Of a DNA stretch of 64,000 bases, positions 22,340 to 63,757 are shown piece after piece. The translations under genes were made by a program, and so were the position numbers. The notes beneath the pieces are model-generated. The model was not told the origin of the DNA and did not search any database. It was given only the letters and a program-made list of their open reading frames with translations. The stretch is from contig JAPLFY010000030.1 in assembly GCA_026390435.1 (NCBI GenBank), positions 62,001-126,000 on the forward strand, in the 5' to 3' direction. The stretch's first letter is position 1, and every line of letters starts with the position of its first letter. The stretch is from Pseudomonadota bacterium. GTDB lineage: Bacteria > Bdellovibrionota_B > Oligoflexia > Oligoflexales > CAIYRB01.

Positions 22340-22355
22340 TGTTCCACGTGGAACA
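22340..22355. promoter_or_regulatory. parS: parS site 1
   Basis: The perfect palindrome TGTTCCACGTGGAACA matches the bacterial parS consensus bound by ParB. It lies seven bases past the T-run of the atpE terminator. Confidence 0.93.
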
Positions 22356-22923: not shown

Positions 22924-22939
22924 TGTTCCACGTGGAACA
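22924..22939. promoter_or_regulatory. parS: parS site 2
   Basis: TGTTCCACGTGGAACA, identical to site 1, in the GC-rich part of the spacer 584 bases further on. Confidence 0.93.
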
Positions 22940-23429
22940 ATTCCCAGGCGGCCTTGTTTTCATCAGAGAAACGGGAGGTTAAGAGCGAATCGCTCGAGAC
23001 CGCTACCCCGGTAGCGTGCGGGGAAATGTGTCGTCTGGCCAGTATCCATTCATGCCCGAAAGGGCAGATCTCGGATCTCGGGGGCGGAGCGGGACTTGGG
23101 AGTGTTACAGATAGGCTAGCTTTCATAGCAACGACCCTTGGTAGCTTTTGTCAGTGACCTATTTCGGGTCATGTCGCTTCGCCGCCTCTTTTAGAGCATC
23201 GGCACTACGTACCGTCGTCTTTGACTTATGAAGCACCCGATTTTGGTGTGGCATGGTTGTCTGCCGTCGGCGCGGGGCGGGGCGGCGACCGTGGTGCCTG
23301 AGCCCACTACGAAAAGCGTCGTGACTCAGCGGAAAACCCGGCGAATTTACCTTAAGTCCACGTCGCCCGCACCCCACGCAAAGACGGCAACTCACCGTAA
23401 TTATGGCACTAAGCGGCAATTATTCGGTG

Positions 23430-23445
23430 TGTTCCACGTGGAACA
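23430..23445. promoter_or_regulatory. parS: parS site 3, inside a 24-base perfect palindrome
   Basis: TGTTCCACGTGGAACA again, but here the symmetry extends four bases on each side (GGTG/CACC), giving a perfect 24-base palindrome at 23426-23449. Confidence 0.94.
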
Positions 23446-23575
23446 CACCACCTATTTGGCTAGCCAAAACAGTCTATCCTCGAAAATATCCTAATCACAT
23501 CTGTAAAGTTCGGTAAATCCGCCGTGAATTATGCTGAAAAAGCGTTGGATTTACCTATTCACTTCGAAAAGCGGA

Positions 23576-32756: not shown

Positions 32757-33689
32757 GTGGAACAAGCCGCCGTCATGGTTACAGGGGGCTCTGGTTTTAT
32801 CGGGTCGCAACTCGTTCGTCGTTTGACCGAGCTCCACCGAACGGTAGTGGCGATTTATCGGCGCAAATTGCCAGAATCGCTAGATCGGGTTTATCCAGTA
32901 TGCACCGATTTGAGCTCACCAGAATTGATGGCCGCGCCACTGCGTGGGGTGGGAACGGTTGTGCACTTGGCGTGGGAGGGAGGGTTTGCCGGGTCGTTAC
33001 CAAATGGTACGGACGACAAAGTGCTCTCCGCTCCAAGCGGCAGCTCGAATCTGAGGATGTTGGGGAATCTGATTGCTGCGATGGAACGAGCCGGCACTAA
33101 AAGAATTTTGTTACTTAGTGCAATTGGTGCGAGTAAAGAGGCCGCAAGCCCTTTTTTGCGCGAAAAATATGCGGCAGAATCGCTTGTAATCAACTCTAAA
33201 ATCTCCGAGCGCATTATCATTCGAACAGCGGTTGCTTGGGGGGGACAGCAGTCTAACGACCGTTTCTTGCGATCAATTCTCAGGGTGCTGCGCTATCCGA
33301 TTTATCCAGTGCCGCAAAGGCACGGCAATATTTCCCCGATTCATGTTAATGATCTGGCAACAATTTTGGCATCTTCCTGCAAGATCAAATTAAACGAGCC
33401 TGTTGCCGTTCTCGAAGTGCATGGTCGCGAAAGTTACCAGGTTCCCGAGATTCTGCGAATAGTCGCAGATCGCCTGACGAAGGGCACTCGCATACCCCTG
33501 GGTGGCTTTCTGGGGCGGTCACTACTGCCGCTGTTAGAAAGAGATCGGCGCACCAACACAGACACGCCCAAGTTGCAGCATGTTCTGGGCCTGGGGGGCT
33601 ATGCCGATACGGGTTTGGCTTTATCTAACCCGCTGAATGCTGTCATTCCCAGGGAGCTAGTGGCCTTTCGCGAAGGGATATTTAAGTAG
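32757..33689 (+). CDS. NAD-dependent epimerase/dehydratase (extended SDR family)
   Basis: A 310-residue sugar-nucleotide modifying enzyme with the N-terminal Rossmann motif VTGGSGFIGSQLVRRL. The SDR catalytic tyrosine and lysine are probably in REKYAAE, a YxxxE variant in place of YxxxK, so activity cannot be assumed. It starts at a GTG with AGGAG ahead, 30 bases after the glycosyltransferase, and the two probably act in one polysaccharide or lipid-linked sugar pathway. It is the last gene before a strong hairpin and the convergent ftsZ. Confidence 0.8.
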   Translation: MEQAAVMVTGGSGFIGSQLVRRLTELHRTVVAIYRRKLPESLDRVYPVCTDLSSPELMAAPLRGVGTVVHLAWEGGFAGSLPNGTDDKVLSAPSGSSNLRMLGNLIAAMERAGTKRILLLSAIGASKEAASPFLREKYAAESLVINSKISERIIIRTAVAWGGQQSNDRFLRSILRVLRYPIYPVPQRHGNISPIHVNDLATILASSCKIKLNEPVAVLEVHGRESYQVPEILRIVADRLTKGTRIPLGGFLGRSLLPLLERDRRTNTDTPKLQHVLGLGGYADTGLALSNPLNAVIPRELVAFREGIFK

Positions 33690-33726
33690 ATCCAGGCGGG
33701 GGACGTGCTGCATAGAAGGTCGCCCT

Positions 33727-33756
33727 GCCCAGGCTATGCTACAGCATAGCCTGGGC
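33727..33756. other. Strong hairpin between convergent epimerase gene and ftsZ
   Basis: A perfect inverted repeat with 14-base arms (GCCCAGGCTATGCT and its complement) and only two bases between them. There is no T-run on either side, so it is not a standard intrinsic terminator, but its position between two convergent stops suggests transcript 3'-end formation or stabilisation for both strands. Confidence 0.7.
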
Positions 33757-33765
33757 TGCGATTGG

Positions 33766-35583
33766 TCAGTCGAGCGGTAAGTCGCGCATGCCTTGGCGTA
33801 GAAATGCCGGAACTTCTAGGTTGTCGGTTTCGCCCATTCTTTGTGGGGTACGCATGCGTTCGGCAAGTTCAAGCGACGCGTCAATTTTTTTGTCGATCTC
33901 GGCGACAACATCGAGGCCCTCAGATCCGAACGAACTAACTTCGGCAACAGCGCCTTTAACCGCGCCGGGGCGATAATCGTTTGCGTCTATCGATTGAACT
34001 ACGGTCCGATCTAGGACCTCGCTGAGGTAGTTTGGCGCGTTGCTAAGAGAGACCCCTGACTCCAACGATTCAAGAGAGTCGATGTTTAAGACATCATGAG
34101 TTGTCACGACGATCTCGGGAGTAAAGTGCGTCGAATAGCCATTGCTCTCCAGAAAGAATTCCTCTTCCATCTGGCCAGCGAAGCCTGGCCCCACAATCTC
34201 AGCCGAGTGCTCGTGGGAGATTTCCGTTTCTGCGGCCGCACTTTGTAGGCTCGGGACCTCAGCCAAATCAAATGTCCATGCAGCTAGTTGGCGAGCTTCG
34301 TCAGTAGCCGTCAGGCCGAGAGACAGACTGGGGGTTTTTTGATCCGAGGCTTCCGACGGATACGCGTCGACCTGATGAATTGGAGCATGTGCTGAAAATT
34401 TTGGTTCTATCTCGACGTTTATGTCAGATTTCAGCAAGACACTTGGCGGCACAACCACAGGGGCCGTGGTGTGATTCTCACTTGTTGCTATCACGGGGTC
34501 ATTCGTCGGCGATTTAGTGTCTATTCCAAATGTCGATGTCGATGTCGTGAGTCGCGATCCGAATGGAGACTGAACTGGCTGAGACTTTGGAATATTGACA
34601 TTGCTAATGTCTGTCTCTTCTTTGTCGACAGGGAAACCAGTGGCTATTACGGTGACGCGCATCTGACCGCCTAAGGTCTCATCAATGACGGCCCCAAAGA
34701 TAATGTTGGCGTCTTCGTGTGCAGCCTCTTGAACTATAGAGCAAGCCTCGTTGACCTCCATCAGGGTGACTTCAGAGCCAGCAGTGATGTTGATTAAGAT
34801 GCCAGTCGCGCCTTCGATATCGATGTCTTCCAGAAGTGGCGACGAGATGGCCATCCTTGCTGCCTCCGCTGCCCTTTGATCGCCACTCGCCGCACCGATC
34901 CCCATAAGAGCTTGTCCCATGCAAGACATAACCGTCTTTACATCGGCAAAGTCAACGTTCACCCGGCCAGGTATGTTTATGATATCGCTGATGCCTCGCA
35001 CCGCATTTACCAGTACGTCATCAGCCATCTTAAAGGCATCGATCATGCTCAGTGAGGGCGAGGCTACTTGCAAAAGGCGCTGGTTAGGAATTGTAATCAG
35101 GGTGTCTACGCACTCGCGCAGGCGAGAAATGCCAATTTCAGCGTGCTTGCGCCTACGCTTACCTTCAAATCCAAACGGCTTCGTGACGACAGCTACAGTT
35201 AAGGCCCCAAGCTCGCGGGCAATTTGCGCGACGACAGCCGCACCCCCAGTGCCCGTGCCTCCGCCCATGCCTGCGGTGATAAAGACCATGTCCGCACCAG
35301 CGAGAGCCTGCTGGATTTCGTAGCGATCTTCAAGGGCAGCATCGCGGCCGACATCGGGATCGGCACCAGCCCCTAATCCGCGCGTCAGCTCACGGCCGAC
35401 CTGTAGCTTTTGCTCAGCTAAAGAGAAGCGTAAAGCCTGCACGTCGGTATTGGCGGTGATGAAGTCGACCCCTTCGAGGCCACTTCGAATCATGGTGTTG
35501 ACGGCGTTGCCTCCACCGCCACCTACACCGATGACTTTGATTTTCGCACCGGGCGGAGTGATGAAATTAGGATCGAAGCTCAT
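33766..35583 (-). CDS. ftsZ: Cell division GTPase FtsZ with unusually long C-terminal linker
   Basis: The tubulin-like protein that forms the division ring. Residues about 1-315 are a normal FtsZ core with [13 protein letters not shown] and the tubulin signature [12 protein letters not shown]. The conserved C-terminal peptide that binds FtsA is intact ([10 protein letters not shown], about 589-598). Between them lie some 270 residues of acidic, serine/threonine-rich, probably disordered linker, so the protein is about 605 residues where 350-400 is usual. The ATG at 35581-35583 is preferred to the GTG two codons earlier because of its spacing to GGGAG. It has its own promoter and a palindromic site upstream. 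Confidence 0.98.
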
Positions 35584-35660
35584 AGGCACTTCTCCCTCAC
35601 AGCAAAGCCTGTGTCGTTCACAGGAACACAGATGAGATTATCGATGATGGCGTAATATGA

Positions 35661-35690
35661 ATTATAGGAACCACGCCTGAAACCTGTCAA
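35661..35690 (-). promoter_or_regulatory. Near-ideal sigma-70-type promoter of ftsZ
   Basis: On the minus strand, TTGACA (35690-35685) and TATAAT (35666-35661) are separated by 18 bases, about 80 bases before the ftsZ start. Both hexamers match consensus exactly. ftsZ can therefore be transcribed strongly on its own, apart from the rest of the dcw cluster. Confidence 0.85.
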
Positions 35691-35701
35691 ATATTTGACA
35701 G
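35684..35701. promoter_or_regulatory. Perfect 18-base palindrome overlapping the ftsZ -35 box
   Basis: CTGTCAAATATTTGACAG is fully symmetric and contains the whole -35 hexamer of the ftsZ promoter. A dimeric protein bound here would block the promoter, so it looks like an operator. It resembles the CTG-N-CAG form of some LexA boxes but with a longer spacer; the regulator is unknown. Confidence 0.75.
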
Positions 35702-35750
35702 AATTTTCCCAGTCCTCAAGTTCCTGAGGAGTCTGGCGCATGAGGCTGAG

Positions 35751-36995
35751 TCAGCTGAGTTCGCGTAGCCAATTGACAAATTGGCCCAAATAGCGATTCG
35801 TCCAAGTATTCTTCTTCGTTTTAGTTAACTCTTCGACGCGCCCCAATTCGAGATTGAGCAGGCCGATGGCCGTGGCAAATTTAGTGGAATGAATGACGGT
35901 ATTGTTTGACGAGGAGTTCTGTAACCCAGCTTCCTGTCCGCCCCCAAGTACGGGCCGTGCCCGCGCCACCGGAATGCTCAGTCGTGACGAGAAATACTCG
36001 GTAATGCCTTTTACGTCAGCACCGCCACCTGTTAACAGAATCCCGGCACCTAAGCAGCCTTTATACGGCTGAAGCTCACCAGCTAAAAGGGCGCAGAGCT
36101 CATGAACTCGTGGACCTAGAACAGGCGTAGTTTGCTCCGCGCTAATTGTCCGTTTTTCACCTTTAATGTTAAAAACTTCCATCGAATCACCCGGTCTGGG
36201 TCTGATGCCAAAGCGCAGTTTAACCGCCTCGGCAGTTTCTGCCGGCAGACTAAGTCCGATGGCGATATCGTTTGTCATTAACTTGCCAGCAACGTTTACC
36301 GTGAAAGCTGCAGCTGGCCTACCGCCTTTAAATACGATCCCGTCCGTCGTGCCCCCACCAATGTCAGCAAGCGCAACTCCAAGTTGCTTGTAGGAATCAG
36401 GTACCGTTACAGAAGCGGAAGCGAAGGGCTCCGAATATAACCTAACAACCTGCAAGCCACATTCATTGCAAACATCGACGACATCTTTCATGTAGAGTTT
36501 GTCAGCATCAATCAGGAAGTATTCTGCTGTCAAAATCTTGCCGCGAAATCCCACGGGGTCGTCAATAGACTCGCGAGTATCGATGCGATAACTGGTCGGT
36601 ATCGTGTGTAGTAATTCACGGCCCTCGGTCGGAGTCTGGAGCTCTGCTTGCTCCATAAGAGCGCGCATATCCTGCACGGCAACAACTTCGCCAGCTATCG
36701 GGCGACTTACCGAGACGATTCGACTAGCCAAATGACTTCCGGCAATCCCGACTACTACGCGAGTGATGTCGGTGTCGAAATGGCTTTCTCCTAGTTCGAG
36801 AAGCTGACGCAGAGCCGACTTTGCTTGCTCCACGTTAGCTAGCATGCCGCGACGCATTCCTTCGGCAGGAACACATAGTGTCTCGACCATGTGACCATCA
36901 AGGCTCGGCGTTTCTCGCAACATCGCCAGGCAAAATTTGGTCGTCCCAAAGTCAAGGCTGAATAAACCCTTAAGATACTTCGCCTTGGGCTGCAT
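35751..36995 (-). CDS. ftsA: Cell division protein FtsA
   Basis: An actin-like ATPase that tethers FtsZ to the membrane and recruits later division proteins. The 414-residue protein has the phosphate-1 motif SLDFGTTKFCLAML, the adenosine motif region GILLTGGGADVKG, the DIGGGTTD phosphate-2 motif and a C-terminal amphipathic membrane-targeting helix (NRYLGQFVNWLREL). It lies 50 bases after ftsQ; a 168-base gap with the ftsZ promoter follows. Confidence 0.98.
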   Translation of the reverse strand: MQPKAKYLKGLFSLDFGTTKFCLAMLRETPSLDGHMVETLCVPAEGMRRGMLANVEQAKSALRQLLELGESHFDTDITRVVVGIAGSHLASRIVSVSRPIAGEVVAVQDMRALMEQAELQTPTEGRELLHTIPTSYRIDTRESIDDPVGFRGKILTAEYFLIDADKLYMKDVVDVCNECGLQVVRLYSEPFASASVTVPDSYKQLGVALADIGGGTTDGIVFKGGRPAAAFTVNVAGKLMTNDIAIGLSLPAETAEAVKLRFGIRPRPGDSMEVFNIKGEKRTISAEQTTPVLGPRVHELCALLAGELQPYKGCLGAGILLTGGGADVKGITEYFSSRLSIPVARARPVLGGGQEAGLQNSSSNNTVIHSTKFATAIGLLNLELGRVEELTKTKKNTWTNRYLGQFVNWLRELS

Positions 36996-37045
36996 GATGA
37001 ACCTGCGTGAAAAGAGGACTGCAAAAGTAGCTAGTTCTCTAATCG

Positions 37046-37921
37046 TTACATTTTCTTCAGTTTTACGAAAGCCTTGCCTTGATAGTCGAGCTCGATTCGC
37101 TGTGCCTGTTCCTGGCGAAGTGCTAATTTATCAAGAATTCCCTTAAGTTTATCAAGCTTTTCGACAAAAGGGGCTCGGCCTAATGCAACTTCTGTTTTGG
37201 TTGCGGCGAGCTCGCAGACAAAGCCGCGGAACTTTTGCAATTGCAAATGCTCAAGAACGAGATCCTTTTTTCGTGCGTCCTGCAATAGCGTTATTGCCTC
37301 GCGCAGCAGCAGTTTAGTAGTGGAATCAACCGTCACAGTTAAATCCTCACCGAGTTCCACGGGTAATCTGTCTTCGAACACACCACTTAGCACAGGACCG
37401 GGACAAGCCTCTCCTGCGCTTTGATCGACTTGACCGTAGATTTCTCCCAAGGTCGAGACAAGCCTCAACTTGTCAGACTCGACACAGAAGACCGGCTCCC
37501 TCTTAGTTAAGCTGATAATCACGTTAAATGGCGCGATTTTTGTCACCCTAACATCGGCATAGGAACCCAATTTTTGAATCGCTTTGGCCGCCATTTCGAG
37601 GTCTTCGTGCGAGCCCTGACCAAGCAAGTGTCGTGTCGTGTTTAATAGATCCGACCTTGCCTGATCTGAAATTGAAGTATGTTCGCCAAGTTTAAGTACT
37701 AGGTCCCAGGAGTTGGGATCAATGACTCGGGCGCTCTTTACAGATAAATTTGAGCGCTGAAACCGATTTTTACTGTATATAAAAGCGCCCCCGGCCACGA
37801 CTCCGCAGAACAAAGCTATGCCGATCACACGAGCTTTTAAAGAGCGCCAGCGGCTCTTCTGATTTCGGGGTTTCTGCCGCGTTAACACCGATTCCCGACG
37901 ACTTTTGCGACCTTTACTCAT
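37046..37921 (-). CDS. ftsQ: Cell division protein FtsQ/DivIB
   Basis: A bitopic division protein that links FtsB/L to the divisome. The 291-residue product has a very basic cytoplasmic N-terminus, one membrane helix (VIGIALFCGVVAGGAFIYS), a POTRA-like domain and the C-terminal FtsQ domain. The frame is open for 41 codons further upstream, but the ATG at 37919-37921 overlaps the murC stop as ATGA and gives the expected N-terminus. Sequence identity is low, as usual for FtsQ; order murC-ftsQ-ftsA supports the call. Confidence 0.9.
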   Translation of the reverse strand: MSKGRKSRRESVLTRQKPRNQKSRWRSLKARVIGIALFCGVVAGGAFIYSKNRFQRSNLSVKSARVIDPNSWDLVLKLGEHTSISDQARSDLLNTTRHLLGQGSHEDLEMAAKAIQKLGSYADVRVTKIAPFNVIISLTKREPVFCVESDKLRLVSTLGEIYGQVDQSAGEACPGPVLSGVFEDRLPVELGEDLTVTVDSTTKLLLREAITLLQDARKKDLVLEHLQLQKFRGFVCELAATKTEVALGRAPFVEKLDKLKGILDKLALRQEQAQRIELDYQGKAFVKLKKM

Positions 37922-39291
37922 GCTAAAGTTTCCTTGAGTAGCTGTGCGACGCGCCACACGTCTCCGGCACCAACTGTCAGTACAACAGAAGGTTCGTCGA
38001 GCCTTTGCAATATTGAGTCTACTGCATCTTCGAGCCGCTCGCATGGAACAGCTTCAAGGTCCATGTGGATTTTGAGGTCATCGGCCAATTTGGTGGGAGA
38101 AAAGTCGAGGGTAGTTGATTCCCCGGCGCTGTAAACGGGAACGACGTACACATAGTCGGCACCGTCGAGAGCTCCTAACATCTCATGGTACATCGTTTCC
38201 AGGCGGGAGAATCGATGGGCCTGATAAACAACATGCAGTTTGTGATTGGGCCAGGTTTCCCTAAGGGTCCTCACGCCAGCAGCAATCTTGCCAGGGTTAT
38301 GCGCGTAATCATCAAAAATTGTGATTTTCTTGTTGCTGAAGATTCGGTCCATGCGGCGCTTAACCCCGCGAAACTCGGCAAGGCTCTCGGCAGCTGTTTT
38401 GACATTGAGTTCCAAAGCCCGAGCAACGGCTAATGCACAGAGTGCATTTTGCACATTGTGTCGGCCCATTGTTGGGATGGTGCACTTAAGCATGTCTCTC
38501 TCGACTATCGCAGTGAAATGAGTCCTGCCGTCGTGACAACTGTAATCACGCGCCCGCACTTCGCTACCTAGAAAGAAACCATACGTTAATCGGTGTCCAA
38601 CGTATTTTTGGCCAACCTCGCGACTAAGGGGGTGATCCCAGCCAATGACCGCGGTGCCATCAGGATCGGTACTACTGACATAAGTGTGGAAGGCTTGCGT
38701 CATGGACTGTTCGGTCTTAAAAAAGTCCATGTGGTCACATTCCACATTAGTTAATACGCCAATATATGGTCGGTAGTTTAAGAATGAACCGTCAGATTCA
38801 TCAGCTTCGGCAACGAACAACTCACTGTTGCCCACCTTAACAGAGCTTTGATAGCGCAGCATCTCGCCGCCCGTTGCAGACCACGGCGCACACCCAAGAT
38901 CATCGAGCATATGTGTAATCATGGCCGACGTGGTCGATTTGCCGTGCGTCCCAGCGACGGTTATTGCCCTTTTATTGCGCATCAAATGCGCGAGAAACTC
39001 GCTGCGATGCAGTGTTAATCTGCCAAGATTCCTTGCGCCCATTAATTCGACATTGTCCGCGGCGATTGCCGAGGAATAAACAATGGTATTGGCGTTGTGG
39101 GCACCGTCAAAGGTGTGCTGAGTGGAAATTTTAATGCCCAAATTTGCTAGGCGAGTTAGTACCGGCGACGATTTAACATCGCTGCCCTGAACCTTGTGGC
39201 CGGAAATCACGGCTAATTCCGCAAGGCCGGCCATTCCCGAGCCACCAATACCGATGAAATGAATCGGGTCTTCAATCGTGTGCCCCAGCAT
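37918..39291 (-). CDS. murC: UDP-N-acetylmuramate--L-alanine ligase
   Basis: Adds L-Ala to UDP-MurNAc, the first amino acid of the stem peptide. The 457-residue protein starts with HFIGIGGSGMAGLA (UDP-binding loop), followed by the Mur-ligase P-loop VAGTHGKSTT and the YAHNP motif (DDYAHNPGKI). Its start overlaps the end of ftsW by 20 bases, and its stop overlaps ftsQ. Confidence 0.98.
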   Translation of the reverse strand: MLGHTIEDPIHFIGIGGSGMAGLAELAVISGHKVQGSDVKSSPVLTRLANLGIKISTQHTFDGAHNANTIVYSSAIAADNVELMGARNLGRLTLHRSEFLAHLMRNKRAITVAGTHGKSTTSAMITHMLDDLGCAPWSATGGEMLRYQSSVKVGNSELFVAEADESDGSFLNYRPYIGVLTNVECDHMDFFKTEQSMTQAFHTYVSSTDPDGTAVIGWDHPLSREVGQKYVGHRLTYGFFLGSEVRARDYSCHDGRTHFTAIVERDMLKCTIPTMGRHNVQNALCALAVARALELNVKTAAESLAEFRGVKRRMDRIFSNKKITIFDDYAHNPGKIAAGVRTLRETWPNHKLHVVYQAHRFSRLETMYHEMLGALDGADYVYVVPVYSAGESTTLDFSPTKLADDLKIHMDLEAVPCERLEDAVDSILQRLDEPSVVLTVGAGDVWRVAQLLKETLA

Positions 39292-61846: not shown

Positions 61847-63757
61847 ATGAATCTCGATCCAAAGATCCCTTCGGGGCCCTTGGCCGACAAGTGGACCAAG
61901 CACAAATTTGACATCAAGTTGGTGAATCCTGCCAACAAGCGTAAATACACCGTAATTGTCGTTGGCTCAGGCTTGGCTGGCGCCTCGGCGGCGGCGACGC
62001 TGGCCGAGCTTGGTTACGAGGTGCTCTGTTTTTGTTTTCAAGACAGCCCGCGTCGTGCTCACTCGATTGCCGCCCAGGGCGGCATTAACGCAGCGAAAAA
62101 CTATCAGGGCGATGGCGACAGTGTTCAGCGTCTTTTCTACGACACCATTAAAGGCGGCGACTTCCGTTCTCGCGAAGCGAATGTGTATCGTCTGGCCGAA
62201 GTTAGTACCGGTATTATCGATCAGTGTGTGGCTCAGGGTGTGCCCTTCGCCCGTGAGTACGGCGGCCTTTTAGCCAATAGATCTTTTGGCGGAGCCTTGG
62301 TTTCACGAACATTTTATGCCCGTGGTCAGACCGGACAGCAGCTGCTACTGGGCGCATATCAGGCACTCGAGCGCCAGATTGCTGCCGGTAAAGTGAAGAT
62401 GTTCCCGCGCACTGAGATGTTGGACTTGGTAGTCCAGGACGGCAAGGCTTCGGGCATAGTCGTGCGCAACTTGGTGACGGGCAAGATCGAGACGCATGCC
62501 GCTCATGCGGTGGTCCTCGGCTCGGGTGGCTACGGTAACGTATTTTATCTATCGACGAACGCCAAAGGCTCGAACGTAACAGCCACCTATAGGGCTCATA
62601 AACGCGGCGCTGGCTTCGCTAACCCATGCTTTACGCAGATCCACCCGACTTGTATTCCGGTAAGCGGCGATTACCAGTCAAAGCTGACCTTAATGTCCGA
62701 GTCACTGCGGAACGATGGCCGAGTATGGGCTCCGTCGAGCACGGGTGACAAGCGTAGGCCCGACGACATCCCAGAGGCTGAGCGCGATTACTATCTCGAG
62801 CGCAAGTATCCCAGTTACGGCAATCTGGCGCCGCGGGACATTGCTTCGCGTTCTGCAAAAGAGGCCTGCGACGAAGGCCGCGGCGTTGGTGAGCATGGAC
62901 TCGGCGTCTATTTAGATTTTCGTGACTCCATCAAGAGGCTCGGCGGCGACACGATCGCACAGAGATATGGCAACTTGTTTCAGATGTATGAGCGCATCAC
63001 GGGAGAGGATCCATACAAGTTTCCCATGCGCATCTTCCCAGCGGTTCATTACACGATGGGTGGTCTTTGGGTTGACTATAATCTTCAGAGCACAATCCCG
63101 GGCCTTTTTGTCATCGGCGAAGCTAACTTCTCTGACCATGGCGCCAACAGGCTTGGGGCCAGTGCATTGATGCAGGGCCTGGCGGATGGCTACTTTGTTT
63201 TGCCCTACACACTTAGCAATTATTTGGCCGGAATGAGCCGTGATCCAGTCACCACCCAGGGGAGTGAGTTCCGCGCCGTTCAGAATCAGGTGGAAGAAAA
63301 GCTAAAGCGCTTACTCTCTATCAATGGAAAGCGCACAGTTGACAGCTTCCACAAAGAACTCGGCAAAATCATGTGGGATAAGTGCGGTATGTCGAGAGAT
63401 CGCGCCGGGCTAACCGAAGCTCTTACTAAAATCCCCGCGTTGCGCGAAGAGTTTTGGCAAAATGTTCGGGTTCTCGGCGAGGGTGAAAACTTAAACCAGT
63501 CGCTCGAAAAAGCTGGGCGAGTTGCCGATTTCTTAGAGTTTGGCGAGCTTATGTGTGCCGACGCTCTGACGAGAGAAGAGTCCTGCGGCGGCCACTTCCG
63601 TGAGGAATATCAGATCGAGGGTGAAGCAAAGCGGGACGATGAAAATTTCGCGCACGCAGCTGTTTGGGAATACCAGGGCGAGGGCAAAGCGCCAACGCGG
63701 CACGTTGAGCCACTGGTCTATGAAAACATCAAGCTCGCGACGAGGAGCTACAAATAA
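61847..63757 (+). CDS. sdhA: Succinate dehydrogenase/fumarate reductase flavoprotein subunit
   Basis: A 636-residue flavoprotein that oxidises succinate or reduces fumarate. FAD motifs [20 protein letters not shown] and the [12 protein letters not shown] segment for covalent flavin attachment are clear, and [18 protein letters not shown] and [14 protein letters not shown] complete the family pattern. Its TAA shares its last base with the sdhB ATG. Sequence alone does not settle the physiological direction; the di-heme anchor fits quinone-linked electroneutral or electrogenic variants. Confidence 0.98.

Follow-up and report, generated by a model that had tools for sequence, protein, structure and literature searches.

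What controls transcription of ftsZ where its promoter matches the consensus at every position and a palindrome lies across that promoter? Detailed knowledge of how ftsZ transcription is regulated exists for few lineages. In the window (the whole stretch of DNA analysed, 64,000 nucleotides, positions 62001–126000 of contig C31 in genome G000), ftsZ (605 residues, P0001; positions 33766–35583, minus strand, ATG at 35583; TIGR00065, 2.7e-129, 431 bits; PF00091 and PF12327) lies directly downstream of ftsA (35751–36995, minus strand, stop at 35751; TIGR01174, 2.2e-63), in the same direction and across an intergenic gap of 167 bases. On the minus strand this gap reads CTGTCAAATATTTGACAG-GTTTCAGGCGTGGTTCC-TATAAT, that is, TTGACA-N18-TATAAT, with the −35 hexamer TTGACA at 35685–35690 and the −10 hexamer TATAAT at 35661–35666 (both minus strand, located by direct reading and scan, and kept at ftsZ across the order Oligoflexales). 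Both hexamers of a sigma-70 type promoter are thus present within the usual spacing of 16–18 bases, with 12/12 consensus matches and an 18-base spacer; it is the sole such promoter in the 16 kb scanned. TTGACA-N16..18-TATAAT occurs twice in the 4.28-Mb source genome, the ftsZ site being one of the two, and not at all in a reversed control, which bears out the rarity that the preliminary description had ascribed to this exact form.

From the promoter we predict a transcription start near 35654 and an ftsZ mRNA leader of ~71 nt (35584–35654, minus strand). The predicted leader did not fold better than shuffled sequences (z 0.39), and no Rfam match was obtained within 33000–38500. It contains a hairpin, CCTGTG-AACGA-CACAGG (35624–35608, minus strand), that is partly kept in the genus. 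The preliminary description had regarded ftsZ as controlled separately from the dcw cluster. This does not follow from the locus: a scan for terminator-like sequences gave no match between ftsA and the ftsZ promoter and the two genes run in the same direction, so transcripts from ftsA may read through into ftsZ. An imperfect inverted repeat, CCAGACTCCTCAGGAACTTGAGGACTGG, lies just 3' of ftsA (35736–35709, minus strand), and within the genus it was found in two genomes, G000 and G002.

The palindrome proposed as an operator, CTGTCAAATATTTGACAG, is 18 bases long and perfect (35684–35701, centred at about −38.5), and its overlap with the exact-consensus promoter was confirmed by reading and by scans. 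The −35 hexamer doubles as its right half; the left half-site, TGTCAA (35695–35700, minus strand), is not accounted for by the −35. Other copies of the palindrome were sought in the 4.28-Mb genome, as had been suggested, and none was exact, the next best being two sites with 3 mismatches. Perfect palindromes of at least 18 bases are expected 0.15 times per 64 kb, and at least one arose in 9/60 simulations (Markov-1), so the palindrome by itself is weak evidence. It is more than chance because it sits on the −35 within a 167-base intergenic stretch and is conserved in relatives. With the right half doubling as the −35, independent evidence for a dyad comes from the left half alone.

Conservation was examined in the sequence upstream of ftsZ in each of the 43 genomes of an Oligoflexales set. 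A promoter with at least about 10 of 12 matches precedes ftsZ in 39/43 genomes and is exact in 31; the spacer is 18 bases in 37 of the 39 recognisable promoters. No such promoter was found upstream of ftsZ in the remaining four (G012, G017, G018 and G034). Across the 43 genomes the exact pattern TTGACA-N17/18-TATAAT occurs at 50 places, 31 of them directly upstream of ftsZ and all of these with N18, in agreement with the assignment of the promoter to ftsZ in the preliminary description. The 19 exact promoters away from ftsZ number about as many as the reversed-pattern control yields (18 across the same genomes). Beyond chance, therefore, hardly any gene of the order other than ftsZ has an exact-consensus promoter. 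One exception recurs in the source genus, where four genomes carry an exact promoter in front of an epimerase-like gene. The order-wide, ftsZ-specific promoter is real. The arrangement is spread over the order, and the earlier suggestion that it fits an organism that delays division is not supported. Positions 15–18 of the spacer are also conserved (T 30, T 25, C 29 and C 21 of the 37 N18 promoters), giving a TTCC that abuts the −10 (35667–35670, minus strand, in the window) and is kept across the order, a further conserved feature for which we have no explanation.

At the level of class and phylum we compared 58 genomes, 15 of them outside the order. In the ftsZ upstream regions of 6 of these 15, the best promoter was weaker and the dyad absent; three of the six promoters had TTTACA-N17/18 with TATACT or TATGAT. 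Four loci (L057, L063, L076 and L107) carry AAAAAATTGACC upstream of ftsZ and near its start, an element common to several records titled Myxococcales, Myxococcota or Deltaproteobacteria. AAAAAATTGACC occurs once in the form TGCCAAAAAATTGACC, which resembles the Oligoflexales ftsZ site.

Poor conservation of the palindrome in relatives had been named as a result that would speak against this interpretation. Among the 39 ftsZ promoters, TGTCAA at spacing 4 from the −35 averaged 4.15 of 6 matches, as against 1.0–2.4 at every other distance between 0 and 15 bases, and at least 5 of 6 left-half bases were matched in 23/39 promoters from 10/21 genera. With one genome taken per genus, 9–10 of the 21 genera reached 5/6 in the left half, a level reached in 0/2000 shuffles. 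A two-fold symmetric site at fixed spacing, as for the operator of a dimeric helix-turn-helix (HTH) protein, is thus present, its right half being shared with the −35. By family, this level was reached in 6/7 genomes of f1, 5/7 of f6, 5/7 of f11, 4/10 of f8, 2/2 of f3 and 1/1 of f2, and in none of families f4, f5, f9 and f10 (5 genomes). The counts refer to at least 5 of 6 matches in the left half. The 16/39 promoters with fewer than 5 of 6 left-half matches belong to f8 genus g15, f10, f5, f4, f9, G006 and others. Where present, the dyad is retained although the flanking sequence has diverged. The composite GTCAA-N4-TTGAC-N16..19-TATAAT occurs at 17 places in 16/43 genomes, 15 of them at ftsZ, with none in the reversed control; no composite of dyad and −10 was found in the 15 genomes outside the order. 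A conserved dyad overlapping the ftsZ promoter in about half of the species is real.

We think it fairly probable that ftsZ has here a dedicated promoter for the housekeeping sigma factor, joined to an operator; the dimeric regulator of that operator would probably be a repressor hiding the −35. The sigma-70 type promoter, which most of the order keeps at exact consensus with a spacer of 18 bases, would supply the capacity for transcription, and the operator would be GTCAA-N4-TTGAC, its right half coinciding with the −35. A dimeric HTH regulator would be expected on the dyad and, because the dyad covers the −35, would be expected to exclude RNA polymerase when bound (repression by occlusion); on its departure the promoter would fire near full strength. 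For a repressor site, a position centred on the −35 region is classical.

The leading alternative, which we consider unlikely, is that the promoter is simply strong and constitutive, the conserved upstream bases being an RNA polymerase contact (a proximal UP-like element) and the palindrome incidental. FtsZ is usually abundant, and a consensus promoter alone would make sense for it; the left half is dispensed with in 16/39 promoters; and the four positions separating the halves are rich in A (30, 29, 22 and 17 of 39), as expected of a proximal UP subsite. In the left half, however, G, T and C are kept in 27, 29 and 30 of the 39 promoters, which a UP element, being A/T-rich, would not require. 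Exact promoters within the same genomes also differ: GTCAA at spacing 4 accompanies 13/31 of those at ftsZ but 0/19 of those elsewhere (p = 0.0007, uncorrected for relatedness).

If a regulator occupies the dyad, its other targets might carry the same site. The source genome contains only five further exact 10-base cores (6 in all), so no large regulon is visible there. Allowing one mismatch in TGTCAA-N4-TTGACA gave 12 places, and a regulon at this stringency was rejected because 8 of the 12 belong to a repeat family, TGTCAATGAGTTGCCA and a variant. This interspersed short repeat (with the one variant) lies on contigs C3, C54, C75, C111 and C144, with paired copies on several of them. Across the order, exact TGTCAA-N4-TTGACA occurs at 20 places in 19/43 genomes, 7 at ftsZ and the others mostly single cases; this search adds a topoisomerase-VI-B-like/EamA-like gene pair in G033 and G039 (named by eye). 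The shorter exact site GTCAA-N4-TTGAC occurs 93 times in 12 genomes, and among the 73/93 sites for which recurrence was judged, those beside related genes in more than one genome comprise ftsZ and a few others. One of these precedes a gene that encodes an HTH/coiled-coil protein of ~200 residues and immediately follows one for an SLT-type transglycosylase (G000, G004 and G001); another lies where a Nudix-type gene stands opposite one for a secreted barrel-like protein (G033 and G024; named by eye), the barrel-like protein having no Pfam or NCBIfam match. In genus g9, three genomes carry GTCAA-N4-TTGAC in front of a D-Ala-D-Ala-ligase-like gene (G024, G038 and G041; loci L242, L251 and L302; assigned by profile models). 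In G014 (L252, contig C339, 1190–1211) a 22-base near-palindrome, CTGTGTCAAAATCTTGACACAG, followed by TATAAT, lies upstream of an XRE/DUF4423 regulator gene, a sign that the half-site may also serve regulators of other families in the order.

The HTH/coiled-coil protein, a possible regulator with a related dyad at its own promoter, is encoded in 40/43 genomes of the order. With variants allowed, a dyad of the form G[TC]CA-like/TG[AG]C-like was found in 18/30 upstream regions of its gene, and in all 18 the right hexamer is followed, at a distance of 26 or 27 bases, by a TAnnnT −10, the dyad being centred at about −47, beside a weak −35. Other intergenic dyad sites (28 loci) showed no preferred spacing to a −10. 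The fixed geometry argues that the dyad at this gene is a promoter element; we treat it as a lead, no proof. Just upstream of the GTCAA dyad at this gene a second dyad, GGCAnnnnnTGCC (in some cases imperfect), was seen by eye at L257–L263, L266, L281 and L283, and also in some genomes whose HTH/coiled-coil gene lacks the GTCAA dyad.

A position of about −47 beside a weak −35 in 18/18 cases looks like that of an activator site, and the regulator might likewise aid RNA polymerase, or set the timing of transcription, at ftsZ without blocking it. An activator of ftsZ is known in FtsR of Corynebacterium (PMC6683498). At ftsZ, however, the dyad physically contains the −35, and a 12/12 consensus promoter should need no activator, so we hold an activator site there to be distinctly improbable. 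It is very improbable that the dyad works at the RNA level or through DNA structure, for instance as a processing hairpin or weak terminator when transcription reads through from ftsA. At the HTH/coiled-coil gene, GTCAA/TTGGC variants could give G-U pairs and are often followed by CTTTT. The ftsZ dyad, however, is followed by no T-run and has no terminator-like match; it is situated 5' of the predicted start; and at both genes the distance from dyad to −10 is constant.

Under the preferred reading, an operator for a dimeric repressor, we put forward the HTH/coiled-coil protein as a tentative candidate for the binder of the ftsZ dyad. The distribution of the two dyads does not link them: in 30 genomes both were present in 12, the ftsZ dyad only in 8, the HTH/coiled-coil gene dyad only in 6 and neither in 4, with no tendency to co-occur (Fisher p = 1.0), and genomes of families f11, f3 and f2 that carry the ftsZ dyad have none at the HTH/coiled-coil gene. 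In 10/10 members scanned (of 40), the best HTH model was HTH_17, below its cut-off; no MerR model was listed for these 10, and the HTH had no sequence match in the PDB. A third protein may instead govern both ftsZ and the HTH/coiled-coil gene. The most specific proposal, an order-specific division switch in which the HTH/coiled-coil protein would bind GTCAA-N4-TTGAC, drive or tune its own gene through the dyad at ~−47 and shut off the maximally strong ftsZ promoter by covering its −35, is speculative, and we would not expect it to hold in full. If it were true, a single protein resembling neither FtsR nor CtrA nor WhiA would act as the gate on FtsZ supply.

We found no published account of this ftsZ promoter in the open-access literature searched. 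Closest in kind is FtsR of Corynebacterium glutamicum (Rv1828 in Mycobacterium tuberculosis), a dimeric HTH regulator of MerR type with few targets, an activator, and, as here, with a conserved inverted repeat in the ftsZ promoter (PMC6683498). The motif and its position differ: the FtsR repeat is a 25-bp sequence, AACCCTAAAGTAAAGGTTGAGGGTA, centred at −73 or, in M. tuberculosis, lying between −10 and −35 (PMC6683498), whereas the site described here is an 18-bp TGTCAA-N4-TTGACA centred on the −35. The candidate HTH/coiled-coil protein, judged from the 10 members scanned, also lacks the MerR-type N-terminal domain, and the analysis connected no MerR protein with the ftsZ site. By eye, no FtsR-type 25-bp AACCC...GGGTA repeat is present in the ftsA-ftsZ intergenic sequence.

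In Caulobacter, CtrA represses ftsZ, and the CtrA box is TTAA-N7-TTAA. Transcription of ftsZ itself is timed there by CcrM and CtrA, with GANTC methylation, but the sites differ and the excerpted account has no such palindrome, making the system more distant (PMC3708114). Also more distant than FtsR is Streptomyces BldC, a small MerR-like HTH DNA-binding protein whose loss brings early Z-rings and which binds direct repeats head-to-tail, unlike the dyad here; the sections of that report consulted give no BldC palindrome at ftsZ (PMC6428758). The site itself can be likened to the CooA operator on half-site TGTCA and N6 spacing, a likeness of site alone. The CooA site, TGTCR-N6-YGACA, is an example of a CRP/FNR-type operator, and regulators of that type often have many sites, in contrast to the few seen here (6 exact cores in the source genome). 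The analysis connected no protein of CRP type with the ftsZ site.

The deep branch concerned includes filamentous and pleomorphic members; Oligoflexus tunisiensis is described as pleomorphic and filamentous and as dividing by binary fission (PMC4179278). In Bdellovibrio, depletion of ftsZ blocks division and yields filaments; the excerpt consulted does not touch on the ftsZ promoter there (PMC12448681). In the search for a division regulator of this branch the locus supplies both a DNA bait that can be used at once and a specific candidate protein. It also lends itself to asking, in a natural setting, why a cell would hold a promoter of maximal strength in check.

Two further features of the window were noted. 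The FtsZ protein has a linker of ~270 residues between its core, which ends near residue 329, and its C-terminal peptide, and similarly long, poorly conserved linkers occur in several relatives. Elsewhere, three perfect TGTTCCACGTGGAACA palindromes, which we take to be parS-like, lie at 22340–22355, 22924–22939 and 23426–23449, one of them within a 24-base palindrome.
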